DNA of 64,000 bases from a virus: positions 1 to 64,000 of IMG/VR virus record IMGVR_UViG_3300008108_000237; one strand, given 5' to 3'. Position numbers and translations under genes: made by a program. The notes beneath the pieces were generated by a model. That model worked only from the letters and a program-made list of their open reading frames with translations, ran no database searches and was not told the DNA's origin. This document shows positions 9,840 to 63,200 of this stretch, piece after piece. Numbering within the stretch: position 1 is the first letter of the stretch; every line of letters begins with the position of its first letter.

Positions 9840-10747
9840 TAATTAGTGATATTTGTAAAGTTTTTACTGAAATCAATATTGTTTCCTCTACTTTGTCTAA
9901 CCTCATAAAGAAGAGCATTAAATTGGTCTCTAATTTCGTAAAGGTTGTATTGTCTGTATATGTTGTTATTCGCATCGTAGATGGTGTAAATTCCATCATC
10001 AATTGATTTAGTTTGATTACCATAAAGAGCAATTGCAAGAGACGAAATATCATATTCAACCATTTCAATCTCCACAGAAACAGGATTGAAAAATGTATTA
10101 GTTATGACAATATCTTGATCTGGCTGTCCAATGTATGGAGTTGAATTTGGTTTGTTTGTTGGTGATGAAGATGGTGAAAGAGTCAAGAAAATTAAATTCG
10201 AATCTCCCTCCACATACCTGTATCTTATAGCCTTTTGAGTAGTATTGACTTCGTTTGTTACGACAGGCTCGCAAAAGAAACTTGATGTTACAACTCGGAA
10301 AAAGTTGGGAATTCTCGACCCGTCAGGATTCAAATATTCTACTCTGAATCCAACTAATCCTTGTTGAACAAATTTATTTTGATATTGGGTTGGTACATCA
10401 GTAACATCAATTACAATTCCTTTCACATTTGGTAGTGCACTTAACACACCACAATCAGTTATTACAGTTCTTATTTCCGCAGGTCTTATATATAAGGTGT
10501 AAATTCCCAACGCATTAAATTGGTTTGCAGGAAGAGTCAAATTATAAAGTCCACCCAAAACTTCCACACCAGGAGTTCCACCAGTCTCAGTGTTTGCGAA
10601 GTAAGGTCGTAATATAGTCTGTGCGTCCAACTTAGTTAATACAAATTGGTCTGTCACATCCCTTGTAGGAGTATAGTTCATAATAATTTCTACATCCGCT
10701 GGTGAAACATCTGAAGGTCTTATTGTACCGTATGAGCCGATTGCCAT
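9839..10747 (-). CDS. Virion structural protein, baseplate cluster (unrecognised)
   Basis: This 302-aa protein begins MAIGSYGTIRPSDVSPADVE. It is rich in beta-strand-type sequence with no clear catalytic motif or membrane segment. A TATTTAT motif lies 17 nt upstream, and the gene opens a tightly coupled run of three genes (this one, the gpI-like protein and the SprB-repeat protein). That arrangement suggests a baseplate peripheral or fibre-connector protein. The specific function is unknown. Confidence 0.7.
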   Translation of the reverse strand: MAIGSYGTIRPSDVSPADVEIIMNYTPTRDVTDQFVLTKLDAQTILRPYFANTETGGTPGVEVLGGLYNLTLPANQFNALGIYTLYIRPAEIRTVITDCGVLSALPNVKGIVIDVTDVPTQYQNKFVQQGLVGFRVEYLNPDGSRIPNFFRVVTSSFFCEPVVTNEVNTTQKAIRYRYVEGDSNLIFLTLSPSSSPTNKPNSTPYIGQPDQDIVITNTFFNPVSVEIEMVEYDISSLAIALYGNQTKSIDDGIYTIYDANNNIYRQYNLYEIRDQFNALLYEVRQSRGNNIDFSKNFTNITN

Positions 10748-14395: not shown

Positions 14396-17300
14396 CTACA
14401 GAATATTTCCTTTTGAATTTATCTAAAGCTGTCTCTCCTAAAACGGTTCCGAAATAGAATTGGAATGGTGCCCCAACAACAAATTTTTGTTTTAAAGCTC
14501 CAGTCGCAGAATACGTTCCATCTCCAACTGTTCCGTTTACATTGAATATGTATCCACGTGCATTCAAATCGTTCGACTCAGAGTTGTTACTCCAAAAATA
14601 TGGTGTGTCTGGAGAATATCTGTCCAATGATTGGAATCTCGAGTTTTGAACAATATCAGAAAATGAAGTTGCCCAGTCATTATACTGATTACCAAATATT
14701 AGATTAGTATTATTCAATTTCCATTGATAAAATGGTACAATTTGAGATTTGATTCCATATGGATATGGATAATATCCTACATCATCTGTCCCTCTGAAAT
14801 TGATTCTTCCTGGAGTCAAATAATCTTTGGTTTGCAAATCCTCAGTTGTTGAAGAAAACCATACAGCAATTGTTGGATTACTTGCGGTTCCTAATATTTG
14901 TGTAGGTTGGTTGGTCGCACCAGAGACACTATCATAATATTCTGGAGAATAGTTGATATTTCCGATTTCACTATTGATAGACATAAGTTGAGCAAGGTCA
15001 CCATCAATTCTTTTTTGGCGTCTTGAGAATAACTGATTTATTCCATTGTCTCCCGAAGAAATTAAATCCCTCAAAAATTTATCATCCGTTATTCTCGAAA
15101 TCACAAATAAGTTCACCAAATCTGACGTGTCACCATAACTAGTTGGATTGATGTTAGGGATAATGTAACCTCTTGTTGATGTATCAAAAGTAATTTCAGA
15201 ATAAAAATAATCTTTCATCCCCATGTTTATTACTGTTGTAGGGAACAATAAGTTCACAGTGTTAAGAGAATTAACGTTGTTTGTCAACTTCCCGACAAAT
15301 TTGTTTGTTGTAAGATTATACGGACTACTTCTATAATAAAAATTGTTACTATCTCTATTATAATAAACTACATCTTCACAAAACCTTACTTGACTTATTT
15401 GATTTTGTTTGTTGTAAAAAGTGTCTACTTGTATTGGGAAGAAATATAATGAACCATTAATCCAATTATTCATGAAAGACTGAGATAAGACTCCTCTACA
15501 CAATCCATAGAAAAATCTGAATCTGTATGCCCACTCATTAAAATTACTTATATCTTTTGATAAGTCAGTTCCAGGTTTTCGAAGGAACATATAACATCCC
15601 TCTTCAACCGCATCTTTGGTTGTACATTCTTGGTTTATTTCGAAATCACTTCCAAACCCTGTATAACAACTTAACCCTACCATGTTTTCACAATTGAAAG
15701 AAGACAAAACTGTCAAATAATTTGGTTGACCTTCAATGTCTGGAGTCACTATTTCAGCCCCCGTGCTATATGACGCTAAATCAATTGGTTGGTCAGCATC
15801 AATAATCTGATAGAATGTAAAATTATTATTTTGTTGTAACAATGCGGGGTTTGTTTGCCATGAACTTCCATTTAGACTATCCGATGATGGTAATCTATCA
15901 GTTCTCATGACATTTATAACTTTTGATGAAATCGACATAGGATTTGCCGATAAAGAAGGATACGCATTCGGAGTGGCATATTGATAGATTACATCTCGAT
16001 AATTGAAATTAACTGCTAGTAATGTTGCAATCAACGCTCCAACTGCAAAAATACCAACAACAAATGGGAATAAAAATGGAATTGCCGCCAATGGTAATAT
16101 TGAAGCAGAAGACCCCAAAATTACCGCTGACAATGGATTCAATGAAAATGCAGTTATATTTGAAAAAATATAAGACGCACCAGATACATCCTCGGATTCA
16201 TCGTATTTTGCAGAGTTTTGATTTGGTGAATAGAAATCATTATTTGTCCTACTCACTACACCAGTCACTCCACCTATATTTTTATCGTTCAATCCTCTAA
16301 CTCCACTAGTATTTGCATCTAAGCTTCCATAATAACCGACAGTTGAAGTTGTGAATCCAGAAAAGTTGTCACCTGGAGTAAAAAAGTATGAAGGATAAAA
16401 CATACCATTCTGATTAAATGGTTGCACAGAAATATTGGTCTGTGTCAATTTTTGAATAGGAATATTCAATCTAGTTTGAGCAGTAATTGTTAAACTTGAA
16501 TCGTCTATGTTTTTTCCGAAAATTCTACCTAATGAATACTGATTGGTGTACTTAGGTGAATACGGGTCAACTCCTCGTTGGAGTATAAGAATATATTGGT
16601 TTTCAATGTCAGTGAAAGCATCCAAAGGACTGATAAGAAAATCTTTATCATTTCTACTATATCCTCTTACCGCTCTTTTTCTAGCTAAAATTAATCTTGA
16701 AGGAGCTGCGATTACATTTGGAAAACATTCCAAAGTTTCTACGTTCCATATTTTTATTGCATCCGCTACAGTAATTGCCGTAATTACTTGGAAGTATTCT
16801 CTATCTTGCGGATATATTTGTCTTGTTATAGTACTACCAGTTGGTAATGTATATAATACAGTTTGGTCAGTTGTTTGGGTTACAGCATAATCAACATTTA
16901 TTGTTGTAGCTTGTTGTATTGTAGTACCTGTTATTCCATTCACAACCCCGTTGACAGTTTCAGCAGTATATAAAAAATTTCTATCTGTCGTAGTTGCAGG
17001 ATTGACAGATGTCAACAATTGTCCCGACTCATAAAATTGATTCGAAAGAACCGTAATCGTATTATCATAGTGAAACTTTCCGAAATTGGAATTTTGTGCA
17101 AAAGTGACTTTTATTTTATTAAGGTTGTCAAAATAAGTGTTTCTTGTATTGAACACGTTAATACGTTCACCTAAAGTAAGACTTTCAGAAAATGCAAAAT
17201 GTTTTCTCTCATCAGATTCCTCTGATAAGAATCTAACAACAGATGACTTTGGTGTTTTGAATAATGAAAGGTCTGACACGGAATCATTATTTCCTGCCAA

Positions 17301-19229
17301 CGCTTGTGCAAAAATTGAAGATTTTATTTGAACATCTTCGGACGGTGTTCCATCTTGTCCAAAAATTGTTTCGAATCCTTCAAAATAACTTGGAGGAAAT
17401 GAAACATAAGACAGTACACCCCTTGTTCCTCCTAATAATGCCTGAGAATCAATTTTGGTCTCAGCACATGAACAAGATTGACATTCAGGGTAAGTAATCA
17501 TTGGAAGTCTAATAGTGAAGTTTTTGGTCTCACACCGTAAACCAGTTTCGTTACAAATAAAACCAAAAGGTCTTACCTTAATAACGGGGATTTCAACACC
17601 ACAAAGAAAACACAATGCTTGTATTACTATTGTATAGATAAACAAAAGTAAATGTGAGACAATAAGTAATACTAACCCCACAAATTGTAAAACTGTGAAT
17701 ATAATTGAAAATAGAAAAAATAACAAATCGAAATTTTTGAAGCCATCGTTGACTGGAAATTTATTTGTTGTACTATCACAACTGTTGTCATCTATCTCTT
17801 TAATCCCAATGAATCTACCCGTACCTCCTTTTTTATATTGGTCAATCAATGATGATATAGTATAAACTCTGTTGAATTGAAATTCGTAGAAAGTGTCCTC
17901 ACAATCAATTATTTCATTGAGTCTATCTATTCGTTCCGTTCCAGTAAATCCATTTGTATATCCTGTCCATGCCAATCCGAAGTAATACGAACTTTCTTGT
18001 AAGTCTCTCGCAGTTTGACTTGAATTTGTTGGGTCTAAAGTTGAACTCTGCCAACCATATTCTTTCACATTCGGAATCAAATAATTTGGTCTTCTTGTTT
18101 GAGCAGTCAAATCTCTCGACTGAGTCCATTTTACTTTGAACCTATATTTTGCTTTGGTGGGTATTCCCAACGTTGCATCATTGGACAATACTCTCTCACC
18201 AAATTCATTAGTGATTATATAGTCCAAATTCATTGGTAATTCGGTCAACCACGTACCATCCCCATCAATTACGTTTCCCGCTTGTTCTAACTCATAAACC
18301 TCCAATACAGGATTTCCATCCTCATCTTGTTGTATAGTTTGTCGAATTGCTAATATTTGTCCAGGTCCTGATGTTAAACCACAAAGGTTTCCCATGTTGT
18401 CTTTAGGTCTACAATTTCTTCTTATCCTGACATTATCAGGAGAAGAAAACATTGAACCCATGAAAACAGCTGTCGGTTGAATGTCTACATTTGCATCATC
18501 TCTCAAGTCAAAATCCAACCTGTTGATGGATATTTGACAAATCTCAGGGTCCCCCCATAAAGGAGATACTTCGAGAGTTTTTGTCAAGTTTATAATTTGA
18601 GGAAGGGAATTCAAATCAGTTGAACTTCTGAATTTATTTCCTGCAACTTGAGCTTCCGTGGCTAATCCAATTCTAACTAAATCTTGTGGAGTAAGAGAAA
18701 ATTCTCCTATGTCTGACAAGTCCACATCCATCACAACTGTTTGAGTTCCGAGAGGAACCCCCATAATCATGTAATCACCACTATCATTAGTTTTGGATGT
18801 AAATCTGTAATATTTGTCATAAATTTCAACAGTAGTACTTCCTGTCAATACATCAGGACGAGATGGTAAAGTACCTGTTGCAGCATGTTTGGAGTATGAA
18901 GGTGTGTATGGAAGTAGATTATATCTATATCCGTCTTCATTTTTATCGGTTGGAGATTTGTAGGGATATATAGATGTAATTAATGGATTAGATTCATCGA
19001 CTTGTTCAATCGGAATAAAAATAGAAACCCTTGCATTCGGTAATCCAAATCCATTGTTTGCCGTTACTCTACCAACTAACACACCATAGTCTGCACAACT
19101 TCTTGTGTAGATGTCTGTTTGTTGTATTTTGAGAGATAAAATTTCTAAGAACTCAAACTCTTGGTCTAACTGTACGTTGATTGATTTGTTTATACCAAGT
19201 TCGGTCTTAATTCTATATGAATCACCCAT
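14388..19229 (-). CDS. Very large baseplate-cluster protein with hydrophobic segments
   Basis: This 1613-aa protein begins MGDSYRIKTELGINKSINVQ. Residues about 45-180 look like carboxypeptidase-regulatory/CNA-B-type beta sandwiches (VLVGRVTANNGFGLPNARVS, then TNDSGDYMIMGVPLGTQ). Residues about 498-548 form a long, strongly hydrophobic stretch (LLFFLFSIIFTVLQFVGLVL and onward), and residues about 1043-1073 form a second one (PFLFPFVVGIFAVGALIATL). A cysteine-rich patch follows the first (ICNETGLRC, then ECQSCSCAE). It lies directly after the gp6-like wedge gene, where T4 keeps its large wedge protein gp7, but I see no sequence match to gp7. The hydrophobic segments are unusual for a soluble baseplate protein and suggest a part that inserts into, or is buried until contact with, the host membrane. 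Confidence 0.7.
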   Translation of the reverse strand: MGDSYRIKTELGINKSINVQLDQEFEFLEILSLKIQQTDIYTRSCADYGVLVGRVTANNGFGLPNARVSIFIPIEQVDESNPLITSIYPYKSPTDKNEDGYRYNLLPYTPSYSKHAATGTLPSRPDVLTGSTTVEIYDKYYRFTSKTNDSGDYMIMGVPLGTQTVVMDVDLSDIGEFSLTPQDLVRIGLATEAQVAGNKFRSSTDLNSLPQIINLTKTLEVSPLWGDPEICQISINRLDFDLRDDANVDIQPTAVFMGSMFSSPDNVRIRRNCRPKDNMGNLCGLTSGPGQILAIRQTIQQDEDGNPVLEVYELEQAGNVIDGDGTWLTELPMNLDYIITNEFGERVLSNDATLGIPTKAKYRFKVKWTQSRDLTAQTRRPNYLIPNVKEYGWQSSTLDPTNSSQTARDLQESSYYFGLAWTGYTNGFTGTERIDRLNEIIDCEDTFYEFQFNRVYTISSLIDQYKKGGTGRFIGIKEIDDNSCDSTTNKFPVNDGFKNFDLLFFLFSIIFTVLQFVGLVLLIVSHLLLFIYTIVIQALCFLCGVEIPVIKVRPFGFICNETGLRCETKNFTIRLPMITYPECQSCSCAETKIDSQALLGGTRGVLSYVSFPPSYFEGFETIFGQDGTPSEDVQIKSSIFAQALAGNNDSVSDLSLFKTPKSSVVRFLSEESDERKHFAFSESLTLGERINVFNTRNTYFDNLNKIKVTFAQNSNFGKFHYDNTITVLSNQFYESGQLLTSVNPATTTDRNFLYTAETVNGVVNGITGTTIQQATTINVDYAVTQTTDQTVLYTLPTGSTITRQIYPQDREYFQVITAITVADAIKIWNVETLECFPNVIAAPSRLILARKRAVRGYSRNDKDFLISPLDAFTDIENQYILILQRGVDPYSPKYTNQYSLGRIFGKNIDDSSLTITAQTRLNIPIQKLTQTNISVQPFNQNGMFYPSYFFTPGDNFSGFTTSTVGYYGSLDANTSGVRGLNDKNIGGVTGVVSRTNNDFYSPNQNSAKYDESEDVSGASYIFSNITAFSLNPLSAVILGSSASILPLAAIPFLFPFVVGIFAVGALIATLLAVNFNYRDVIYQYATPNAYPSLSANPMSISSKVINVMRTDRLPSSDSLNGSSWQTNPALLQQNNNFTFYQIIDADQPIDLASYSTGAEIVTPDIEGQPNYLTVLSSFNCENMVGLSCYTGFGSDFEINQECTTKDAVEEGCYMFLRKPGTDLSKDISNFNEWAYRFRFFYGLCRGVLSQSFMNNWINGSLYFFPIQVDTFYNKQNQISQVRFCEDVVYYNRDSNNFYYRSSPYNLTTNKFVGKLTNNVNSLNTVNLLFPTTVINMGMKDYFYSEITFDTSTRGYIIPNINPTSYGDTSDLVNLFVISRITDDKFLRDLISSGDNGINQLFSRRQKRIDGDLAQLMSINSEIGNINYSPEYYDSVSGATNQPTQILGTASNPTIAVWFSSTTEDLQTKDYLTPGRINFRGTDDVGYYPYPYGIKSQIVPFYQWKLNNTNLIFGNQYNDWATSFSDIVQNSRFQSLDRYSPDTPYFWSNNSESNDLNARGYIFNVNGTVGDGTYSATGALKQKFVVGAPFQFYFGTVLGETALDKFKRKYSVDE

Positions 19230-43974: not shown

Positions 43975-45846
43975 TCAACTTGAGTAAGGTGATGCAGTTG
44001 GCTTCAATGGATTTTCTGAATCACTTATATCCATGATATAATTTCTGAAACTTTGTTCATTTACAACTTGTTGGAATATTTTCATCCAATTCTCTTTTTC
44101 TTGTGGTGTTGTATTAGCTGGTGGGTTAGTAAAATTGTGATTAATATTTAAATTTCCATTAACAGAAACATTCGAGTTTTGTTGTACGTTTTGTCTAACA
44201 GTTTTGGTCAATGATTCGTCGCCTGCCGAGATTCCTCCGACTGTGACATTAGTTCCAGTTTGACTTTGTGTTGCGTTCTGAGATTTATTTTCTATAGGTT
44301 GAATGTTTTGGTTCATTAATTTACCAGCTAAACTGTCTAAAAGTGGCCCTAAATTATCAGAAATTGCACGTCCTGTGTCCGTTGAAACATTTTTCCCAAG
44401 TTCTGCAGATATATCTCCAGCAGCTTGTTTAATGGTTCCCAAAGAAGATGATTGTAATTCACCGAAAATACCTTCAGCATTTGAAATCAATAAGTTTTCG
44501 ATATCAGTTGCACTTGCACCCGAAGCAATTTTTTCGGCTAAACCTTGTTTCAAATCTGCAGCGGATCGGTCTGTCATGTCTCTTACCTCCTCAGCTGTGA
44601 CTGCTTGACCACCAACTCTACCTATTACTTCAGCAGTTTCACGAATACCCTCACTCACATCCTGAAAAGTATCACTGGTCAATGCACCACCTACGAGAAC
44701 CCCTAATATAGCTGCAACATCATTTGCGATTATTTCATCAGTCCTAAGTTGTTCTCTTCCAATTTCCTCTAAAGTTTTTGGTCCCTCTTTCTGTTCCTGA
44801 ATGAGTTTGTCAAATTCAGGTTGTGATAATTCTGACAATTCTTTTTTCGTTCCATCTTCCAAAGTAACTTTATAAGTTCCTCCCTCCATTTTAGCAATAT
44901 TAGCCAAATATTGTTTGTCCTCTTCATTTACTATGGATAGACCCGCGGCGTCTATTGCAGATAAACGTTTATCTGCTTCAGCCGCCGCCAAACCAAGTTT
45001 AGTCATCTCACTTGCCGAAACTCCTGTTTGGTTTTGTAACTCTCTAAGTGTTAAAACCCCTTGTGGATTTATCTTAAAGGTTTTAGTTTTTTCATCGAAA
45101 TATGTAAATTGTTTTGCAACTTCAACCAAACTGTCTTGTAAACCTGAAGGGTCATTGATTGATTGATTCATCAATTGAAATGGGTCAACTAAATTTCCAG
45201 CTGAAACTCCTAATCTTTGGAATGCTGCTGCGGTTTCAATAGCACCTTCTGGTGTTAAAACTTTGTCAGCTAATCTAAAAGTTTCACCCATGTCAAATCT
45301 CAACATAGATGCTTGTGCCGCCATTTTAGTTAATCCTCTTACTCCATCTTCGAACTGAAAACGGTTCATTTGGTCCATGTTTTTTGAAACATCACCAAAA
45401 ACCTGTTTAGCATTTCCCCCTATGCTTTGTACATATTGCATAGATTCTTCGAGTGCCTTTGGTATGGATTCTATACCAATACCAACATCAAGAAAACTAT
45501 TAGCTAAAGATTCTGCACTTGTACCTAAAACTTTCGATGCCGCATATAATTTTTCAACTTCTTCTGAAGTTGCAACAACGTTCCTCCTTGAAGCTTGAGC
45601 TACATCACTTATTATTGCTGATACATCTTTTAAGTCACCACCAAGTCTTCTAACATTTGGCAGAGCATCGACTAACGATTTTTGTAACTCAAAAATCCTT
45701 TCTCTCCCTTGAGTAAAAGTTCTTAAAATATCATTACTGAATTCGGAGAGTGCCTTCTGTGATTCTAATAAATCAATTTTTTTTGCTCCCAAAGCATCTC
45801 CCGATACTCCCCCCGCCGCAGGTGTTGTTGGTGTATTTTGAAACAT
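43975..45846 (-). CDS. Tail tape measure protein candidate
   Basis: This 623-aa protein is predominantly helical. It begins MFQNTPTTPAAGGVSGDALG, with long amphipathic stretches (LSEFSNDILRTFTQGRERIF), many Ala/Ser-rich helices and a small hydrophobic segment near residue 370 (VAAILGVLVGGALT). The C-terminus has a Gly/Asn-rich beta part (NVSVNGNLNINHNFTN), common at the end of tape measure proteins. T4 gp29, which sets tail length, is 590 aa. Its position between tube/hub genes and the tube-initiator gene fits. Confidence 0.75.
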   Translation of the reverse strand: MFQNTPTTPAAGGVSGDALGAKKIDLLESQKALSEFSNDILRTFTQGRERIFELQKSLVDALPNVRRLGGDLKDVSAIISDVAQASRRNVVATSEEVEKLYAASKVLGTSAESLANSFLDVGIGIESIPKALEESMQYVQSIGGNAKQVFGDVSKNMDQMNRFQFEDGVRGLTKMAAQASMLRFDMGETFRLADKVLTPEGAIETAAAFQRLGVSAGNLVDPFQLMNQSINDPSGLQDSLVEVAKQFTYFDEKTKTFKINPQGVLTLRELQNQTGVSASEMTKLGLAAAEADKRLSAIDAAGLSIVNEEDKQYLANIAKMEGGTYKVTLEDGTKKELSELSQPEFDKLIQEQKEGPKTLEEIGREQLRTDEIIANDVAAILGVLVGGALTSDTFQDVSEGIRETAEVIGRVGGQAVTAEEVRDMTDRSAADLKQGLAEKIASGASATDIENLLISNAEGIFGELQSSSLGTIKQAAGDISAELGKNVSTDTGRAISDNLGPLLDSLAGKLMNQNIQPIENKSQNATQSQTGTNVTVGGISAGDESLTKTVRQNVQQNSNVSVNGNLNINHNFTNPPANTTPQEKENWMKIFQQVVNEQSFRNYIMDISDSENPLKPTASPYSS

Positions 45847-53443: not shown

Positions 53444-55195
53444 ATGGATATAAGTTTGGAATCGAAAGCATTATCCTTATTGGAATCTTATGAAGGTGGA
53501 AATAACTATTTACTCGAACTTAAAAGAAAGTCTCAAATAAATAAAAAATTCTATCCCACAAGAAGTCAATCTGAATACATTATTAATAATCATAACAACC
53601 AACCAAAGGTTGCTAAAAAGTGGGTTATTTTAGATGCATACTTTGCTAAAAAGTTGGCGGACGACAAACTCTATACTATAATACCTGATAAGGTGTGGGT
53701 CGAAAAGTTATTGTGTGACACCGAAAAGGCTTTTCATATTTGGGGAAGAGTATTCGAAACTGAAGAGTTTCATGACTTTTGGCTTCCGAAGGCAGCAATA
53801 ATAAAAGACAATTCTGTCAAAGATGTTGTAATAGACTATGAAAAATATTCTCACAGACCACCATTGCAACATCAAAAAGAAGCAATCCAAAAACTTGTTG
53901 AAAACAAAAAATTTATATTAGCCGATGATATGGGTTTGGGTAAGACTACCTCTACTATCATAGCGGCTTTAGAAACAGGGGCAAAGAAAATTCTGATTAT
54001 CTGTCCCGCGACTTTAAAAATTAATTGGAAGAGAGAAATTGAAAATTATTCCGAAAGGTCAATATTCATATCTGAAGGTAAAAGTTTCAGTACCGAACAT
54101 GACTTTGTTATCATAAACTACGACATTATCAAAAATTTCCATGACACTAAGAAAAAAAATGAATCGCAAGTTACTTTTGCCAATTTTGATTTGGTGGTCG
54201 TTGATGAGGCACACTATATCAAGAATCCTACGGCCCAAAGAACCAAACTTATAAATGATATTGCCAAAGGGGTAGATAGACTATGGTTATTGACTGGGAC
54301 ACCTATGACCTCAAGACCTATGGATTATTTCAACTTATTACATTTGATAGAGTCTCCTGTTGCAAAGAATTGGATGGCATATGCAATTAGGTACTGTAGT
54401 GGATATCAATTTAATGTGGGAGGTAGAAAAGTTTGGAACGTTACAGGTTCATCCAATTTAGAAGAATTGAGAGATAGAACATCAGGCCTTGTTTTAAGAA
54501 GACTCAAAGAAAACGTCTTGGACTTACCTGAAAAAATAATCACTCCAGTTTATCTCCGATTGAAATCCAAAGCATATGAAGAAGTCATGGGGGAATATTA
54601 TGATTGGTACGATAAAAACCCTGAAGAATCAAAATCTCTCACAGTACAATTCACAAAACTTACCAAAGTTCGTCAAATAATTGCCGATGAAAAAATAACT
54701 CAAACTATAGAAATTGCTGAGAATATTGTTGAACAAGGTAAAAAAGTAATCATCTTCTGTAACTTTACCGATTCACTAAACAAAATTTGTGAACACTTTG
54801 GAAAAACTGCAGTAAAAGTGGATGGGTCGATGTCCAAACACGAAAGACAACATAGTGTCGATTCATTTCAAGATAATGAAAAAGTTAAAGTTTTTGTTGG
54901 AAACATCAAAGCCGCTGGTGTAGGATTAACATTGACCGCGGCCGAAGCTGTCATCATGAATGACCTTTCATTCCTTCCCTCTGACCACGCCCAAGCAGAA
55001 GATAGAGCTTATAGATACGGCCAAAAAAATAATGTACTAGTATATTATCCAATATTCGAAAATACAATAGAAGGGATAATATACGATATATTAAATAATA
55101 AAAAACAAGTTATTGCTACTGTTATGGGAGACAACTTAAACTCATCAGATATGGCAGAAGAAATTTTAAACAGAATTAATGAAATCAGAAAATAA
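53444..55195 (+). CDS. SNF2-family DNA helicase/translocase (SMARCAL1-like)
   Basis: This 583-aa protein has an SNF2 core. Motif I is near residue 160 (ADDMGLGKTT), motif II near 252 (VVDEAHYIKN), motif III near 284 (LLTGTPM), and motif VI near 515 (QAEDRAYRYGQ). RKVWNVTGSSNLEELRDRTS and RRLKENVLDLPEKI resemble the SMARCAL1/HARP type of annealing helicase. In T4 the related UvsW resolves branched DNA and controls the switch to recombination-dependent replication; a similar repair role is inferred. The N-terminal 130 residues are unrecognised. It leads a short plus-strand block. Confidence 0.9.
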   Translation: MDISLESKALSLLESYEGGNNYLLELKRKSQINKKFYPTRSQSEYIINNHNNQPKVAKKWVILDAYFAKKLADDKLYTIIPDKVWVEKLLCDTEKAFHIWGRVFETEEFHDFWLPKAAIIKDNSVKDVVIDYEKYSHRPPLQHQKEAIQKLVENKKFILADDMGLGKTTSTIIAALETGAKKILIICPATLKINWKREIENYSERSIFISEGKSFSTEHDFVIINYDIIKNFHDTKKKNESQVTFANFDLVVVDEAHYIKNPTAQRTKLINDIAKGVDRLWLLTGTPMTSRPMDYFNLLHLIESPVAKNWMAYAIRYCSGYQFNVGGRKVWNVTGSSNLEELRDRTSGLVLRRLKENVLDLPEKIITPVYLRLKSKAYEEVMGEYYDWYDKNPEESKSLTVQFTKLTKVRQIIADEKITQTIEIAENIVEQGKKVIIFCNFTDSLNKICEHFGKTAVKVDGSMSKHERQHSVDSFQDNEKVKVFVGNIKAAGVGLTLTAAEAVIMNDLSFLPSDHAQAEDRAYRYGQKNNVLVYYPIFENTIEGIIYDILNNKKQVIATVMGDNLNSSDMAEEILNRINEIRK

Positions 55196-55208
55196 AGTAT
55201 TTTAGCAT

Positions 55209-55215
55209 TATTTAT
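55209..55215 (+). promoter_or_regulatory. TATTTAT promoter-like motif before the SOD fusion gene
   Basis: The plus strand reads TTATTTATAGTAAATT, 20 nt before the ATG at 55236. On this strand it faces the plus-strand gene, so the motif orientation tracks coding direction. Confidence 0.45.
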
Positions 55216-55235
55216 AGTAAATTAAAAAGCCAACA

Positions 55236-56774
55236 ATGACTAAAATACAAGAAAAAATTCAACAACTCGAACTTAAAATTGTGGAACAAAAAGTGACGAG
55301 AGAAAAAGAGTTGTTAATTACAGAAATGAAAAAGATAGGAATAGAAAAACTACCTTACTCCTACTCAGCCCTCAAACAATTTATCGACCCTGAAACAATG
55401 GATTTCCATTACAACAAACACTACAAAGGGTATGTTGATAAATTAAATGATGCACTATCCAAGAAAAAGTATGGTGACTTGGAATTGGAACAAATCATAA
55501 AAACAATCAGTCGGTTTGATAAAACAATCAGAAACAATGCTGGTGGGGCGTTTAATCACGCACTTTTTTGGAATATGTTGTCACCTGAACCTAAAAAGTT
55601 GACAGGAGATTTATATAAAAAGATTACAAAAGAGTTTGGAAGTTTTGTTTCTTTTAAGAAAAAGTTCGAAGAAATTGCAAAAGAAAGATTCGGGTCAGGA
55701 TGGGTATGGTTGGTTTTGACAGGTAGAAACACTTTAAAAATTATGTCTACCCCAAATCAAGATAATCCTTTAATGAACATAGTCGAAAACGGTGGATTTC
55801 CACTTTTGGGTTTGGATTTATGGGAGCACGCATATTACTTAAAATACAAAAACAAGAGAGACGAATACATCGCAAATTTTTGGAAAGTTGTGAATTGGGA
55901 TTTTGTTTCGAAACTATATGAAATGAAAACCCAAACTAAACTTTTGGAATCTACCGAAATGAAGAAAGTAATTGAAAGTTCAAAACCCGCACAATTTTGT
56001 AGTAGTTCTGAAACTGAGTATTTCAAAGAGTTAATAAACAACAAGCGGATAAAACCAATTTATCAAAATGGAGTTACTGAAAGTTTGAAAGAAGTATTCA
56101 AAGATTTTTGGATTGAAAGTCAAGGAAAAGAAATGTCTGGATTTTATGGTATTGAATCCGACGAGGCAAGATCTGTCTTGAACAATCTTAACACAAATTT
56201 TAACACTTTTTGTTTATTAACAAAAGCGGTGAACAGACAAATCGATTTGATTGGACAACCAAGCAGAAAATTTGATTTTTCAATAAAAACAAAAAGAACA
56301 CCTGAAGAAGTTGAACGATTTACGAAAGCATTGAATTTTTTCAAAAATGAAATCTTTTCCAAAGACAACGAAGAATTTATTAATATTATCAAAGTTTTAC
56401 TAAAACTTTGGAAAAAAGGGGAACAGTCCGAAGACGAAGCTAGTTTAATCATAAAAAAACATTTTGGTGATAGAGTTTCTGTGACTAAAACATCTGGTGC
56501 AGGTCTAATGATAGACGCTTTTGGAGGAATTGATTTATTTATCGAACTTGATGGAAAAAAATATAGATGTCAGGTAAAACAATTTTCTTCAATTAAACAT
56601 GAAGATGGTAAAATTACTGTAGTTAATACGGGTGATGTGAAACCATATAGAGTAAATTGGATGATATTTATTAACTACAAAACAAAAAAAGTTTTAATTT
56701 TCAAAAATGACCCAATTCAAACTCAGGGCCAATATGTATTCAATGAATCCTCTTTAATTTACGAAATAAATTAA
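55236..56774 (+). CDS. Fe/Mn superoxide dismutase fused to a nuclease-like C-terminal domain
   Basis: This 512-aa protein has three parts. Residues 1-34 look like a short coiled coil. Residues about 35-225 are a full Fe/Mn superoxide dismutase. The metal ligands H58, H108, D194 and H198 are present, as are gateway Tyr 66 and the segments RNNAGGAFNHALFWNM and STPNQDNPLM. The last contains a Gln typical of manganese-type enzymes. Residues about 250-512 are a separate domain ending in FGGIDLFIELDGKKYRCQVK (about 425-448). Asp, then Glu, then Gln-Val-Lys fits a degenerate PD-(D/E)xK nuclease core, with Gln for Glu in the ExK. The first part should dismutate superoxide. The second might bind or cut DNA. 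The gene follows an SNF2 helicase and precedes a structural gene. The fusion is continuous with no frameshift. Confidence 0.85.
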   Translation: MTKIQEKIQQLELKIVEQKVTREKELLITEMKKIGIEKLPYSYSALKQFIDPETMDFHYNKHYKGYVDKLNDALSKKKYGDLELEQIIKTISRFDKTIRNNAGGAFNHALFWNMLSPEPKKLTGDLYKKITKEFGSFVSFKKKFEEIAKERFGSGWVWLVLTGRNTLKIMSTPNQDNPLMNIVENGGFPLLGLDLWEHAYYLKYKNKRDEYIANFWKVVNWDFVSKLYEMKTQTKLLESTEMKKVIESSKPAQFCSSSETEYFKELINNKRIKPIYQNGVTESLKEVFKDFWIESQGKEMSGFYGIESDEARSVLNNLNTNFNTFCLLTKAVNRQIDLIGQPSRKFDFSIKTKRTPEEVERFTKALNFFKNEIFSKDNEEFINIIKVLLKLWKKGEQSEDEASLIIKKHFGDRVSVTKTSGAGLMIDAFGGIDLFIELDGKKYRCQVKQFSSIKHEDGKITVVNTGDVKPYRVNWMIFINYKTKKVLIFKNDPIQTQGQYVFNESSLIYEIN

Positions 56775-56780
56775 TATAGA

Positions 56781-56787
56781 TATTTAT
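56781..56787 (+). promoter_or_regulatory. TATTTAT promoter-like motif before the neck-like gene
   Basis: The plus strand reads GATATTTATAAGTATG, only 4 nt before the start codon at 56792. Confidence 0.45.
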
Positions 56788-56791
56788 AAGT

Positions 56792-57919
56792 ATGTCAGTT
56801 ATACCAGAACCAGAAAGAAGTCGGATTTATACGAGAGTTAAACATCAACTTGGTGCTCCTCTTAGAAGTGTCGAGTTAGAAGATGAAATGTTAGATTCCT
56901 TAATGGAATTGGCGGTTGGAGATTATGAAGAGTATATTCTTCAATGGTTGATTGATTCCCAATGGGTCAACTTGGTAAATTTGAATATGAATGAAAGGTC
57001 TGTTGCAAGAGCCTTGGTTACAAGGACAATGGATTTCGAACAACAATTCAGTTATTCATACTCAAAAATAGTTGGTCTTCAAACTGAAGGTCCATGGGTT
57101 CTAAAGAAAGATTATTTTATCTTAAGCGCAAACACTCAAACTTATGAAATTCCTGCAGGTAGAGAAGTGAACGAGTTACTTTGGTTTTCGAACCAAGCTT
57201 GGACTGCATTCGGTTTAGGTGGTTTGGGTGGATTCGGTTTCGGTGGTATTGGTTTGGGAGCAAACGAAGCGGGTTATGCACAGATGGGCTATCAAGGTTC
57301 GTACTTCATGATGTCAGGATTTGACTATCTTATTAGAATGCAAGAAGCCAACATCTTGAATAGAATTTTAGGTGGTTCCTTAACTTACAGAATTACTGGT
57401 CTTCCTGACGGCAAGAAACTTATTCACCTTTACAATACACCTGGTGGAAAGTTCAATTGGTCAAATTATAACCTTTATGTCGGTAAAGCCGTTTGGTATT
57501 GGTATTATGATGTAGAACCAGACAGTCGAGCTGATTGTTTGAAAAATAATCCTGATATAATTAAATTACCTACAGACGTTCCAATCGAAGAATTAACTTG
57601 GACAGATTTGAACGTTCCTGGTCAACAGTGGGTTAGAAGATGGTTCACGGCTTATTGTAAAGAAACTTTAGCGAGAGTCAGAGGAAAATACAGTGGTAAT
57701 CTCAAAACTCCTGATAGTGAAATTATAATGGATTATCAGAGTTTACTGACCGAAGCTAAAGATGAAAAATCTAAATTGATTGAAGAATTAATTGGGGCTG
57801 AAGGTTGGTTGACAAGAATGAGACCTGAAAAAGTTATGGAGAGAGAGGCATTGATTGCAGAGAATCTAAATAAACAAATGAAATTTAGAGCAATGCCTCG
57901 ACAAATTTACGTTATATAA
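56792..57919 (+). CDS. Neck/virion structural protein candidate
   Basis: This 375-aa protein begins MSVIPEPERSRIYTRVKHQL. The last third (AYCKETLARVRGKYSGNLKT, then PDSEIIMDYQSLLTEAKDEK) resembles the end of T4-type neck proteins such as gp13 (309 aa), where a long helix follows a RGKYSG loop. A Gly-rich insert near residues 138-158 (FGLGGLGGFGFGGIGLG) looks flexible. T4 gp13 completes the head for tail attachment. The homology is judged by eye only; another head-tail connector is possible. Confidence 0.6.
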   Translation: MSVIPEPERSRIYTRVKHQLGAPLRSVELEDEMLDSLMELAVGDYEEYILQWLIDSQWVNLVNLNMNERSVARALVTRTMDFEQQFSYSYSKIVGLQTEGPWVLKKDYFILSANTQTYEIPAGREVNELLWFSNQAWTAFGLGGLGGFGFGGIGLGANEAGYAQMGYQGSYFMMSGFDYLIRMQEANILNRILGGSLTYRITGLPDGKKLIHLYNTPGGKFNWSNYNLYVGKAVWYWYYDVEPDSRADCLKNNPDIIKLPTDVPIEELTWTDLNVPGQQWVRRWFTAYCKETLARVRGKYSGNLKTPDSEIIMDYQSLLTEAKDEKSKLIEELIGAEGWLTRMRPEKVMEREALIAENLNKQMKFRAMPRQIYVI

Positions 57920-57922
57920 TTT

Positions 57923-58258
57923 ATGGCTATAGTTAAATCAATTCCCTCAAGAAGAATTATTAGCGGGGAAGTTATCAACACATCAGAAATTTCCGTAGTT
58001 TCGGAATCGACTTATAAAACAAATGGTGAAAGTTGCATCATCGTTAGAGGAGTATTAAACTCAGTTGTTATTTTGAATTCCTCAACTACAGACCACATTG
58101 TTGTAAAATCAATGACAAGCCTCACCATACTCCCCGATGTTGGAAAAATCGATGAAGAATATGATGAGGTTGTAGTTGATAAATTTGCTTGTATCGAATT
58201 CCGATTTGTAGGTGGTAATTGGTATATTCTATCAAGTGACGGACTTAAACAGTCATAA
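57923..58258 (+). CDS. Small beta-rich protein, probably virion-associated
   Basis: This 111-aa protein begins MAIVKSIPSRRIISGEVINT and ends FRFVGGNWYILSSDGLKQ. The even spacing of strands (IIVRGVLNSVVILNSSTTDH, then VVVDKFACIEFRFVGG) suggests a small beta sandwich or beta helix like the attachment parts of tail and head decoration proteins. It starts 3 bases after the neck-like gene. Its end overlaps the convergent DNA polymerase gene by 14 bases, with no terminator between them. Confidence 0.65.
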   Translation: MAIVKSIPSRRIISGEVINTSEISVVSESTYKTNGESCIIVRGVLNSVVILNSSTTDHIVVKSMTSLTILPDVGKIDEEYDEVVVDKFACIEFRFVGGNWYILSSDGLKQS

Positions 58259-61034
58259 GCTTGTTTTCCCAACCTTCTTCAGCCAATTCATACATATAGT
58301 AAGGACTCAATCCTCTTCTTTCCCAATATTGAAGTTCCGCTTCAGTAATATCCAAAACATCTTCTTTTAGTTTATCTTGGTCACCATCAGCTAATGGATG
58401 CCCATTAATTAACTCACATTGAGATGTTGTAAATATCCCCCTTTTATCAGGTTCATTTACAATCAATCCGTTTCTTACTTCATCTTGGAATACAACCATC
58501 AAAGGTTCAATTCTTTTATTGAAGGTCACAATTGCTCTTGGTACATTATAATCACCAGTCAATTCAGGGTTGTTGTCCAATATATCTTTATCAAGCATGT
58601 AACAATTAACAATAACACCATCTGTTACTTCTTTAACATTTGGATTCTCAAGTTTATTGAGAGCATTCAAATCTTTTAATTGTTTTACTGTCATTTTCTG
58701 AACATCTCCTTGGGAAGCTTTTGTACCATTATTCACGTACATGATTACATCTCCCAAATTGACATTGAGTTTCTCCTGAATAGCGAGTTCCATGTGAGCC
58801 ATTCTTGACATACTATTGCCTGATTTGGTTTTGGTTGTCAGTCTTTTTCTGTATTCATCAAGACTAAGTTTGACTTTAGCTCTCTGAGCAATCTTGGACA
58901 ATGGAATTTTCTTGTCATAGATTTTTTGTAGATACTCGTAATAATACTCAACAAATCCTTTCCCATCACCTTGTAACAACATTTTGATTCCTTTATCCAA
59001 AAACTCTTCGATGTATATTGGAAGTTTTTTTGATTTGATACTATTTCCTGTGAGTTTGATTTTTCCTTTAGCATCCATTACCGCATAGTTCTTACGAGCC
59101 AAGTTAATACAAGAAGGCCAAACACCATCTGTATCCAAAGCCATTTCACCTCTCATGAATATGTCGTTGTACTCAGCAACATCAGCCTCAGGTCCTTTAT
59201 ACTCTTTTCCCTCTTTAACTTTCCAATTGAGACCCCTACCAATGTAAACTCTATCTTTTGCGTCAGTCGGAGTTGAAAAGTTCACCCCGTCTGTATCCAT
59301 TACTAAGGGAACATAACCCTTCGCCATAAAAAATTTTATCATTTGTCTGAGGTACTGTCTTCCCGTACAAGTAATTTGTTCTCCCATGTACATGTCACCC
59401 CAAGCATAAACCTGAGGGGCTGACAATGCACCGAACATGGAGTTAATAAAGATTTTAATTGGAAGTTGTTTGTTTCCATATGATTCAGACTTTTTCTTGT
59501 CTGTCTCATAATATTGTTCCGCCAAGTTTTTGTATTTGATACGTGTGTCACGGAACCATTTGAGCATTCCCTTCATTGCCCCTGTTACGTCACAGTCAGG
59601 AAATACATCGTGTACCAACTGAATTGAGGGGTATAGAGAAGAGAAGTCGAGTTTGAGTACGTCCTTGCTATACCCAACTTTAAGAAGTCTTGAAAGACCT
59701 CCAACGAAGTCAGTCTTGGATTCTTTCGCAGGAATTGCAATATTATGTTTATAAGACCACGCCATCATCAACATCTTCCATAGAGTTGCAGTACCCATGG
59801 TTGAAACTCTTTCATAGGTAGTTGGAATCATCGCAGCAAGAAGAAATGAACCTTGATTGAACTCTTGGTCCACTTTCAAAGTTTCGTCCAAGTCATCATC
59901 CAAGTATCGTTCAACAATATCATCGCCTGTTGTTTTAAGATACACATCAGTTCGACTCTCACAAATCTTATCGACTTTGGGGTCGACCCCAACTTTTCTG
60001 TAATTTCCGTTCTGTGTGTTTAACCAAAACTCCTCTTTGTTACTGTATAAACTTGCTATGTCCAAATGGTCAATATACACTCGGTCTTCCGCTTGTGCGT
60101 TTATGTATTGAGTAATATACTTCAAACCCGCAGATTTGATACTTGAATTGATTGCTTGTGCTCTTCGGACAGCGTGAATAATATCAATCACGTTATACCC
60201 CCAAATTGAAGTTTGTATATATGATTCAACTTCATTTGCAAGTTTCAACATACTTTCTTTTCTCGTAAAAGAATGTTGGGGGTGTAAAGATTTACATATC
60301 TTTTTAGGGTCAAGTCCAAGTGTTTTACATCTTTCAAATATCCAATGCCAGTCAAAGTTCGCTGAATTGTATCCACCAATTATACTTGGTTTTAACTCAT
60401 CGATTATTCGAAAAAATTCTGTTATAGCACCTCGTTCTTGAGATTCATCTATACACTCGATTACTTTGTGGAATCCTTTATTTGTTTTAATTCCAATCAT
60501 GAATATACGACCGTCTTTAGGTTCAAGAGCAGTCGTTTCCAAGTCAAATACCAATCGGGTTACTTGATTATAATCTTCGAATCCTTTGAACAATCTTTTT
60601 TCTTTCTGAACTAAGTATTGTTCGACAGGAGATAGAATCATGATTTTTTCTTTGGTTCTTTCACCCCAAGGGTCACAACCACCTTCTCTAAAAAATTGTA
60701 CAAGTTCTCTGTATCCTTTCAGAGACTTGACTAAGAAAGTCATCCCTTTTTCTAATCTTTCGTTTCCATAGGTTTCTAACTTTTCTATTACAATTCCATG
60801 TTTGGTCATAGCTTCTTTCTGAGAAGCTTTAGACCCACCATAAAAATTAATATCACGTAAGTCTCCAACCCATGCGAATGGAATGAAAGTATCCTTTCGG
60901 ATTTCTTTCCCTTTACCAGGAATTTCTTTGATTTTGTAAATGGAGTTGGAAGCGTAGTCGAACTCGATGGCGACTATAAATTCTTCGGGGTCGTTTCCGT
61001 GTAGAAACGATTCAATTTCTTTTTCAGTAAACAT
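58245..61034 (-). CDS. DNA polymerase, family B (gp43-like)
   Basis: This 929-aa protein has a 3'-5' exonuclease domain and a polymerase domain. Exo I is near residue 161 (FDLETTALEP). Exo II is near 215 (IIGGYNSANFDWHW). Polymerase motif A is near 460 (LDFSSLYPSIQ), motif B near 526 (KIFINSMFGALSA) and motif C near 578 (VMDTDGVNFS). T4 gp43 is 898 aa. The catalytic Asp residues are intact in both domains. The leader has a TATTTAT motif and a small hairpin 27 nt before the ATG. T4 gp43 represses its own translation by binding such a hairpin, so the same is possible here. Confidence 0.96.
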   Translation of the reverse strand: MFTEKEIESFLHGNDPEEFIVAIEFDYASNSIYKIKEIPGKGKEIRKDTFIPFAWVGDLRDINFYGGSKASQKEAMTKHGIVIEKLETYGNERLEKGMTFLVKSLKGYRELVQFFREGGCDPWGERTKEKIMILSPVEQYLVQKEKRLFKGFEDYNQVTRLVFDLETTALEPKDGRIFMIGIKTNKGFHKVIECIDESQERGAITEFFRIIDELKPSIIGGYNSANFDWHWIFERCKTLGLDPKKICKSLHPQHSFTRKESMLKLANEVESYIQTSIWGYNVIDIIHAVRRAQAINSSIKSAGLKYITQYINAQAEDRVYIDHLDIASLYSNKEEFWLNTQNGNYRKVGVDPKVDKICESRTDVYLKTTGDDIVERYLDDDLDETLKVDQEFNQGSFLLAAMIPTTYERVSTMGTATLWKMLMMAWSYKHNIAIPAKESKTDFVGGLSRLLKVGYSKDVLKLDFSSLYPSIQLVHDVFPDCDVTGAMKGMLKWFRDTRIKYKNLAEQYYETDKKKSESYGNKQLPIKIFINSMFGALSAPQVYAWGDMYMGEQITCTGRQYLRQMIKFFMAKGYVPLVMDTDGVNFSTPTDAKDRVYIGRGLNWKVKEGKEYKGPEADVAEYNDIFMRGEMALDTDGVWPSCINLARKNYAVMDAKGKIKLTGNSIKSKKLPIYIEEFLDKGIKMLLQGDGKGFVEYYYEYLQKIYDKKIPLSKIAQRAKVKLSLDEYRKRLTTKTKSGNSMSRMAHMELAIQEKLNVNLGDVIMYVNNGTKASQGDVQKMTVKQLKDLNALNKLENPNVKEVTDGVIVNCYMLDKDILDNNPELTGDYNVPRAIVTFNKRIEPLMVVFQDEVRNGLIVNEPDKRGIFTTSQCELINGHPLADGDQDKLKEDVLDITEAELQYWERRGLSPYYMYELAEEGWENKLMTV

Positions 61035-61523: not shown

Positions 61524-63200
61524 TTATGACTCTTTACGAAGGTCTCTGTTGTAATGTTCGAATCTATCGTGTTCTGTGGGTGTTAATAATAGTAATCCAG
61601 GTTTCAATTCATCTTTTTTAACTAACTGATACATGTGAGACATCCATGTTTGTTCGAATGGATGTGCCCAAGTTGTATCCAAAAACATTTTTTGATTACC
61701 AACTCTACTTACAATTTGAGGCCAATTACAATAGTAAATTTCTCCTTTAGCGTAAGGTAATCCTCTATGAGAAAGGATTTCAGTGAATCTTGTTTTCGGT
61801 GCATTGGGGTCTAGTCCCAATTCAGGTAATCTTGGTTTGTCGGGCCAAAATTCTGTTCTTACGTGTTGAGGGACATTGTACCAACTCCATTGAACTCCAT
61901 TATCGCCATAAAACTCAGAATAATTAAGTTTCAAAAAATCCAAGTTTTCTTTTTTTATTACCTCTAATGATTTAGTGTATAAATTTGGAACATATCTGCT
62001 GAATCCATTTCTACAAACCTTTCTTTCATTGGGGTAGAAAAACATATCATCTTCAAAAAATAAATAATAATCTAAATCAGTTTCATTCTGAAAGTGTTCT
62101 GCAATCCATTGTCTTCCCCCACAAATACCTAAGTTGTCTTTTTTGATATGTTCGAATCCAAATTCTCTACAAATTTCAGAGTATTCCTCGGTAGTTGATA
62201 AATCACTCGAATTGTCTAACAAAAATTTGTTTGTTTTATTGATATAATCTTTGTCATACGCCAACATCGAATCAATCAATGTCTTAAATTGTTTTGGACT
62301 ATTGAACGTAATAACATACAATCCAACTTTATTGGTGTCCAAATTATTAGTTACTTGAACAGAACTTTCATTCTTAACTCTAAGTTCATCATTTTTCAAA
62401 TCTTCAAAAAACTTGCCAATTAAACCATTTGATTCAATTTGGAAATAATTGAATAAATCAGAATGTTTATAACACATAATACTGAATATTGATTCTTCAG
62501 TACCCATATATCCTTCATCTAAAGTGCTTTTCAACAAACCATAATAAATTGAGTTGACATCACTTATTGTGTGTTTCGGACCACCGAAAAATCCACCCCT
62601 GGCGACTTTGTTGACTTTGTTATTAGCAATCGAATTTAATTTATTATATTCAAACCCATGAATTTCTTTTTCAGCATCATAAGGAAAACAGATAAACGAG
62701 AATTTGGAAATGTATTTTGAAAGTTTATCCAAAACTTTGTCGTGTGTAAAATATCCTGGATGGACTGTATTAGTTAGTCCACCATCAATCCAAAACAAAT
62801 ATTCGGAATCAAACCTATCCATTATTTTTGCATCATGTAATAGAAACATTTTGGACATAACCAATGGATTGTAGTTTTCCAAACGAGATTGTGTCGATTC
62901 TTTTAACCATCCTGCTTGATTATACCAATCAGGGTTTGTTCGGATTTTTTGAATCAATGGAAAAAACTCAGATGAGGTAAACCATTTCAAAGGTCTTTCT
63001 ATAAATTGTGTTTTTTCTTGAGACCTTCTTTCATTAACAAATGTTCTCAACTCCTCATCACCATAGATAATTAAATTTTCCTCAACTTTTAACAGTTGTT
63101 CAAACTTATCCAAATAATGTTGATATGACCTACTCCAACCTTCAGTTAATTCCCCTCTTCCAATATCCCAAATCCCTGTTACTAATGTAATCTTATTCAT
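61524..63200 (-). CDS. Two-domain HtrL/WlaTC-like and GT-A glycosyltransferase
   Basis: This 558-aa protein has two parts. Residues 1-275 resemble the HtrL/WlaTC family of surface-polysaccharide proteins. It begins MNKITLVTGIWDIGRGELTE, with LFWIDGGLTNT near 135, ARGGFFGGPKHTI near 200 and TEESIFSIMCY near 230. Residues 290-500 form a family-2-like GT-A domain. It begins VGLYVITFNSPKQFKTLIDS, followed by NLGICGGRQWIAEHF and the acidic metal-site segment FFEDDMFFYPNE near 390. It could add sugars to a virion protein or to modified DNA, or alter the host surface. The stop is near 61524 and its start overlaps the next gene by 8 nt (ATGAATAA). Confidence 0.75.
   Translation of the reverse strand: MNKITLVTGIWDIGRGELTEGWSRSYQHYLDKFEQLLKVEENLIIYGDEELRTFVNERRSQEKTQFIERPLKWFTSSEFFPLIQKIRTNPDWYNQAGWLKESTQSRLENYNPLVMSKMFLLHDAKIMDRFDSEYLFWIDGGLTNTVHPGYFTHDKVLDKLSKYISKFSFICFPYDAEKEIHGFEYNKLNSIANNKVNKVARGGFFGGPKHTISDVNSIYYGLLKSTLDEGYMGTEESIFSIMCYKHSDLFNYFQIESNGLIGKFFEDLKNDELRVKNESSVQVTNNLDTNKVGLYVITFNSPKQFKTLIDSMLAYDKDYINKTNKFLLDNSSDLSTTEEYSEICREFGFEHIKKDNLGICGGRQWIAEHFQNETDLDYYLFFEDDMFFYPNERKVCRNGFSRYVPNLYTKSLEVIKKENLDFLKLNYSEFYGDNGVQWSWYNVPQHVRTEFWPDKPRLPELGLDPNAPKTRFTEILSHRGLPYAKGEIYYCNWPQIVSRVGNQKMFLDTTWAHPFEQTWMSHMYQLVKKDELKPGLLLLTPTEHDRFEHYNRDLRKES

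Follow-up and report, generated by a model that had tools for sequence, protein, structure and literature searches.

A predicted manganese-type superoxide dismutase joined to a PD-(D/E)xK nuclease-like domain in a T4-like jumbo-phage lineage

The locus and its neighbours

The window, by which we mean the whole stretch of DNA that was analysed, comprises 64 kb out of a virus record of 66,376 bases. Its source is read as a T4-related myophage because its genes encode, among other things, a tail sheath protein, wedge and hub proteins of a baseplate, the two subunits of ribonucleotide reductase, a UvsX-like recombinase and a DnaB-like helicase. A tRNA search of the window found none. Two other genes encode a 558-aa phage protein with an HtrL_YibB domain (61524-63200; 6.5e-22) and a 1154-aa protein (176-3640) in which the unnamed family phrog_31248 matches three stretches.

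The gene of interest is a single open reading frame of 512 codons, lying, as the original prediction had it, between an SNF2 helicase and a neck-like gene. The features of the locus are as follows.

53444-55195, plus strand: SNF2-type helicase, upstream neighbour (phrog_62, 1.4e-116)
55209-55216, plus strand: octamer TATTTATA, 27 nt 5' of the fusion start codon, conserved across loci
55236-56774, plus strand: SOD-nuclease fusion gene, 512 aa, one open ORF (127 distinct full-length fusions, the window's included)
55239-55334, plus strand: extra N-terminal segment, residues 2-33, a helix in the model at low confidence (pLDDT blocks 40-56)
55344-55913, plus strand: predicted Mn-type Fe/Mn SOD domain, residues 37-226 (Pfam; PDB profile match 5.7e-66; fold Z about 20; 127/127 invariance)
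55914-56369, plus strand: helical middle region, residues 227-378 (structure model; alignment; homology to part of a stand-alone phage protein)
56370-56771, plus strand: predicted PD-(D/E)xK nuclease domain, residues 379-512 (model; fold matches; invariant E399, D433, Q446 and K448)
56781-56788, plus strand: octamer TATTTATA 5' of the neck gene, exact in 31/70 relatives
56792-57919, plus strand: neck / head-tail adaptor protein, downstream neighbour (phrog_211, 1.8e-9)
57923-58258, plus strand: p111, a conserved 111-aa protein of no assigned family (synteny; no match in PHROG or Pfam)
58245-61034, minus strand: DNA polymerase, convergent neighbour (phrog_262)

The superoxide dismutase half

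Pfam profiles place Sod_Fe_N at residues 37-116 (1.6e-22) and Sod_Fe_C at residues 123-226 (4.4e-40), both far above the cut-off, and give no significant match beyond residue 226. A superoxide dismutase (SOD) had been proposed for the first 225 residues, and Pfam, fold and residues all agree with this, except that the extra N-terminal segment comes first and the SOD itself begins near residue 37. The top PDB sequence matches of this half are mostly Mn SODs. In fold comparison, the full-length model gives Z scores of 20.7 to 19.4 across the 50 entries listed, every one of them either a SOD or a SOD subunit of plastid RNA polymerase; since that model is of low confidence (low pLDDT) in the SOD half, the fold call leans more on sequence. 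The metal ligands H58, H108, D194 and H198 are present as originally claimed, as is the gateway Tyr (Y66), and all five are invariant in 127/127 distinct fusions. Indeed, all 15 of the SOD positions tested (H58, H62, Y66, G104, H108, W112, W156, W158, Q175, G192, D194, W196, E197, H198 and Y201) are invariant in the 127, while identity to the window's SOD falls as low as 69%. Three of them, H62, E197 and Y201, are presumably dimer-interface positions by known SOD numbering.

In PMC10172142, a C-terminal Gln and a Gly at D-2 are associated with Mn preference, and the assignment to the Mn type is made because the fusion has both (Q175 and G192); the same paper names a cambialistic Bacteroides SOD that also has Gly at D-2, so that the Gly is no proof of Mn preference. 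The prediction of an intact-looking Mn-type SOD is well supported by these sequence and model comparisons. The fusion resembles Mn-preferring SodFM enzymes in fold, in the four metal ligands, in the Tyr gateway, in the C-terminal Gln and in the Gly at D-2, and it differs from them in possessing a nuclease, an extra N-terminal segment and the status of a phage core gene.

Phage SODs are already known as separate genes. They are named among the ROS defences of freshwater phages in the accessible portions of PMC6802176 and PMC12542629, and a giant-virus SOD is mentioned in what is available of PMC9405923. The stand-alone SODs of Pseudomonas phage Callisto, PA5oct-like phages and Vibrio phage 2.275.O are likewise jumbo-phage Fe/Mn SODs, but they are of 182 and 189 aa, lack a nuclease and are 28-31% identical to the SOD part of the fusion. 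Among 11 lineage records, which were picked for carrying the fusion, each has exactly one Sod_Fe_C match, every time the fusion itself, and none has a separate SOD gene of about 200 aa beside it.

The nearest bacterial SODs (best 80) are 45-57% identical to the fusion's, and 68/80 are from Bacteroidota by record titles; a profile of the C-terminal part finds no match among frames of at least 120 aa in the loci of these 80. In a tree of SODs, 19 fusion SODs group together (support 0.63) and, under the rooting used, fall outside the 83 other SODs, so that no SOD donor can be named.

The middle region and the nuclease half

The original prediction had the SOD running without a break into a nuclease-like domain. 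The frame is indeed continuous, but a helical region at about residues 227-378 intervenes between the two. This middle region is mostly helical in the model, and in the window's subgroup it carries conserved FYG and LNNLNTNF motifs.

Modelled alone, residues 231-512 reach a mean pLDDT of 87.2 and a pTM of 0.80. The best solved Foldseek match to this model is the homing endonuclease I-Ssp6803I (E 2e-4, probability 1.00), with Hjc, SPARDA and NhoI ranking next, and alignment by VIA-align gives Z scores of 8.4 for I-Ssp6803I, 8.2 for NhoI, 8.1 for Hjc and 8.0 for SPARDA, covering about the last 120 residues. These fold scores are modest (Z 8), yet the top rows all come from one superfamily, PD-(D/E)xK. 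E399, D427, D433, Q446 and K448 are invariant in 127/127 fusions, with the nuclease domain down to 30% identity with the window's, and the FGGIDLF...YRCQVKQ stretch from which the nuclease was originally proposed contains D433, Q446 and K448. The core fold of PD-(D/E)xK enzymes is thus found together with the conserved acid/acid/(D,E,Q)xK residues, and the earlier proposal is borne out at the level of prediction: residues from about 379 to 512 are well supported, by model and alignment, as a predicted PD-(D/E)xK nuclease fold with an E/D/QxK active site.

A named nuclease family for this part has been harder to find. Among 35 members scanned, there was no convincing Pfam match, and the only PHROG found was the unnamed phrog_5018, in 26/35 (best 7.9e-5), which also matches the Caulobacter control and, at 1.9e-22, elsewhere in the 735-kb phage LR756501; a lacking profile match of this kind bears on the named family and not on membership of the PD-(D/E)xK superfamily. 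PDB profile matches of the C-terminus to a designed knot protein (2.3e-4), HP0242 constructs, an H2B chain and a primase (0.32) were judged to be chance matches of helical stretches. A pattern search of 84,980 bacterial and archaeal genomes returned 73 matches and no true relatives, and because the patterns were narrow this is weak evidence of absence.

I-Ssp6803I and the SPARDA DREN nuclease are among the closest structural neighbours of the C-terminus. SPARDA likewise has a D-QxK arrangement; according to the available part of PMC12205087, its catalytic residues are D41, Q60 and K62, it needs a tetramer, and it is compared with the I-Ssp6803I tetramer. The fusion differs from both in that no intron or Argonaute partner is seen, identity in fold alignments is about 14-20%, and a SOD is attached. 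Hjc shares the PD-(D/E)xK fold (Z 8.1) but differs in that its Pfam profile gives no match and in its size, about 115-125 aa against the 282-aa homologous C-terminal part of the fusion.

Family size, synteny and lineage

A scan with the window protein returned 595 relatives, of which the best 80 all align across residues 1-511/512 or 9-511, with every frame open across about 512 aa. Pooling several scans and removing identical proteins and frames of less than 480 aa leaves 127 distinct full-length fusions of 504-524 aa, the window's own included, which fall into 82 clusters at 97% identity, 59 at 90% and 33 at 80%. Interrupted frames occur in two contigs, L321 (834-2278; 356+107 aa) and L480 (5270-6813; 247+252 aa), the break in the latter coming after the SOD part.

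The setting is as constant as the protein. Among the first 71 distinct proteins, the SNF2 gene lies 5' in 70 and the neck gene directly 3' in all 71, the sole exception (L024) having other upstream genes. The last scan gave 47 distinct proteins, nine of them already in the 71, and the 38 new ones have SNF2 5' in 38/38 and the neck gene 3' in 37/38, the remaining contig ending there. With the neck gene as the only query, the fusion precedes it in 80/80 loci (best 80 of 598 relatives). Minor variations are seen. Three loci (L007:985-1647, L020:5223-5984, L068:5311-5991) have, between SNF2 and fusion, an additional gene that is 220-253 aa long and rich in CxxC at its start, perhaps, as a guess, a mobile endonuclease. 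One subgroup has a gene of 381-382 aa between fusion and neck (L465:6848-7996, L491:6846-7991), with no Pfam match for the L465 copy, and a stretch is inserted ahead of the neck gene in L465, L476 and L491. A SET-domain gene (for example L438:3124-3519 and L200:1990-2427) stands 5' of SNF2 in 43 of the 112 fusion loci whose upstream sequence is long enough to tell, but not in the window.

The longest contigs of the lineage measure 317,210, 317,259, 321,139, 321,283 and 326,291 bases, and because related contigs reach this size the window probably belongs to a genome of the 317-326 kb class. A T4-type portal profile matches 8/11 lineage records. By comparison of sequences, there is good support for the fusion as a core gene, in conserved synteny, of a T4-like jumbo-phage lineage. 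The expectation that the same fusion might occur in other phages has fared less evenly: it recurs in viral contigs of this one lineage, but in a collection of 50,697 phage records no match spans 80% of the fusion query, and the 29 records that match do so in the SOD part only. Those at 38-49% identity (e.g. H1-H14) look for the most part like contigs from bacteria or like short pieces lacking annotation; in the freshwater record MW462191 the SOD is a gene of its own, of 199 aa, surrounded by bacterial-type genes.

The fusion has very probably been deposited already, since the 501-aa UniProt entry A0A6J5L953, a 'superoxide dismutase' of an uncultured Caudovirales phage, aligns along 483 columns at 46% identity (Foldseek); its nuclease half carries no name in the UniProt listing. 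The C-terminal model also matches A0A8D9CCA0, an entry of 1113 aa from an uncultured marine phage, with a TM score of 0.73 by query length. A description of the SOD-nuclease fusion was not found in the open-licence literature.

A Bacteroidota host for the lineage is only suggested, on the grounds of the nearest SODs, of the few Shine-Dalgarno-like words (3/36 window genes) and of neck gene matches, four of seven records of which are Flavobacterium phages.

A stand-alone homologue and the resolvase question

The phage LR756501 encodes a stand-alone 290-aa protein that is homologous to most of the C-terminal part of the fusion (hhalign probability 97.4, E 9.5e-12, 228 columns) and keeps its acidic and QxK residues. 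There is no Sod_Fe_C match in that record, and a search seeded with the 290-aa protein returned no viral relatives. A SET-domain gene directly adjoins this homologue. As the nuclease part exists alone in LR756501, the SOD was either joined to it or lost from it, and joining onto a pre-existing nuclease seems the simpler course.

Profiles for Endonuclease_7, RuvC, RusA, Hjc and Phage_endo_I gave no match in 11/11 lineage records, four of which are of 317-326 kb and most of which are fragments; RecU lies outside these five families. In positive controls, Endonuclease_7 was recovered in T4 (gp49) and RuvC, RusA and Hjc in control genomes, with no strong control for Phage_endo_I. The Hjc profile gave a match in 0/13 records, G000 included. 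LR756501 itself has no Endonuclease_7, RuvC, RusA or Hjc match and one weak Phage_endo_I match under the cut-off. The absence of resolvases may reflect diverged families or families outside the five.

The gp4 profile phrog_218 matches T4, RAS14 and LR756501 and none of the 11 fusion-bearing records, and it is absent among the 20 PHROG families listed for fusion members. With neither a gp4 match nor a known resolvase match in the lineage, a resolvase-like or a gp4-like job is available for the fusion.

The leader octamer

The octamer TATTTATA is found 5' of the fusion in 63/71 loci, mostly at -25 to -29, and in 31/37 further divergent loci. Counted from the gene starts of longest frames, it occurs exactly before the neck gene in 31/70 loci, before SNF2 in 1/55, before the polymerase in 0/48 and before p111 in 0/67, against a random background of 1.5%. 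A tie between fusion and neck is drawn because the octamer is common to both and almost absent before SNF2, polymerase and p111. Within the window, it also occurs at -23 or -24 of three genes without a family match (9839-10747, 14388-19229 and 43975-45846) and at -38 of a baseplate wedge gene.

In many relatives a hairpin encloses the octamer, with its 3' arm close to the fusion start codon (e.g. L030, L049, L449). Stems of at least 7 Watson-Crick pairs occur in 6% of shuffles but in 49% of the 73 leaders, figures that are indicative only given related leaders and shuffles made without dinucleotide preservation, and the stem sequences differ while staying complementary. The window's own leader (55160-55238) has no clear hairpin. 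The hairpin with its octamer is possibly a regulatory element; a plain late promoter was not accepted as a reading of the octamer, which in many relatives sits in a hairpin adjacent to the start codon.

Two halves evolving at different speeds

Ten window-versus-relative comparisons, hand-picked for spread, set the two halves of the fusion clearly apart. Synonymous differences are near saturation in both (pS 0.57-0.88), so that neither half has been homogenised recently. The dN of the SOD is 0.05-0.10, compared with 0.03-0.14 for SNF2, 0.03-0.10 for the neck gene and 0.06-0.15 for the polymerase, and because it is on a par with these the SOD is taken to be a core function. By contrast, dN reaches 0.28-0.52 in the middle region and 0.31-0.71 in the nuclease, the latter being 4.6-9.4 times that of the SOD and 2.8-6.2 times that of the DNA polymerase. 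The dN of p111 is intermediate (0.12-0.29), above its neighbours. As far as the alignments tell, the nuclease half holds its catalytic residues fixed while the remainder changes fast.

A proposed role and its alternatives

We propose, with a probability of about 0.4, that the fusion is a bifunctional phage enzyme, a Mn-type SOD with a PD-(D/E)xK nuclease, that would act in late DNA processing, perhaps as a junction resolvase. The halves stay joined in all but two of the copies analysed, which suggests that the two predicted activities may work as one machine on DNA. The SOD would form its usual dimer or tetramer and would thereby bring the nuclease domains together in twos or fours, as the nearest structural relatives require, while the nuclease would keep the SOD at the DNA, where superoxide could be cleared locally. 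Acting late, along with head-tail joining, the fusion would serve as a DNA-processing nuclease, and our preferred guess is that it would resolve Holliday junctions or other branched DNA ahead of packaging or in its course, the task that gp49 performs in T4. This guess is made because a UvsX-like recombinase is present in the window while five known resolvase families gave no match in the lineage, and it is preferred over a gp4-like role because gp4 and the stand-alone homologue occur together in LR756501 and because the fold is Hjc-like. A DNA-processing function would fit the neck linkage, the nuclease fold, the recombinase and the core status, and the evidence, drawn from sequence and models, leans to a late role of this kind. 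In the original prediction the protein could guard phage DNA from oxidative defence or deliver a DNA-acting enzyme. It is also conceivable, if rather improbable, that the SOD oligomer is the obligate platform of a structure-specific nuclease, that superoxide chemistry and cutting are coupled, for example if the state of the oligomer or the supply of metal gates the cutting of DNA, and that the enzyme is the junction resolvase of the lineage.

The main rival is an effector, in which the nuclease would cut the host chromosome, plasmids, satellites or rival phages and would change fast in order to follow or avoid its targets, while the SOD would shield the infected cell or the DNA as it enters. 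We regard this as possible though on balance unlikely. It is favoured by the fast change at frozen catalytic residues described above, which suits an effector no less well than it suits a resolvase, and by a precedent in jumbo phages, where, in the available text of PMC7824862, fusions of restriction endonuclease (REase) and DNA-modification (Mom) domains are interpreted as an attack on host or superinfecting DNA. However, the fusion is single-copy, sits beside the neck gene in every one of the 80 loci and is constant in architecture, which gives it the look of a core gene, and no immunity or modification partner has been recognised among its neighbours.

An improbable alternative is that the fusion replaces T4 gp4, a phage nuclease tied to head-tail joining, as a virion nuclease that trims packaged DNA. 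The adjoining neck gene and the shared octamer would fit such a role, as would the lack of phrog_218 matches in records where the T4-type portal is found in 8/11, and gp4 homologues are nucleases of REase fold, as far as the accessible portion of PMC7824862 goes. Against this, two hhalign comparisons with T4 gp4 detect no sequence relation (E 0.29 and 0.46), gp4, by our reading, has ExK where the fusion has QxK, gp4 and the stand-alone homologue coexist in LR756501, and Mel-JY01, which lacks a gp4 match, has no SOD either.

Still less probable is a tether, in which a catalytically dead C-terminus would only bind DNA and bring the SOD to the phage genome. The SOD is far better conserved than the C-terminus, and chloroplast RNA-polymerase complexes, among the top fold matches, include SOD-fold subunits (8w9z, 8xzv, 9epc), but a pure tether would hardly keep E399, D433, Q446 and K448 in every fusion despite identity as low as 30%. 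Finally, the interrupted frames of L321 and L480 notwithstanding, the chance that sequencing or assembly joined two genes in error is negligible in view of the 512-aa open frame, the 127 distinct fusions in 33 clusters at 80% identity and the viral UniProt entry aligned along 483 columns, and the gene is a single one, as originally claimed.

Biological significance

Phage SODs are usually seen as loose metabolic add-ons; here the SOD is part of an apparent core gene and is constrained like a DNA polymerase. The lineage that carries it is found in many metagenomes. With this protein, a link between antioxidant chemistry and the handling of phage DNA can be put directly to the test, and the fusion is a candidate for a missing resolvase or packaging nuclease.
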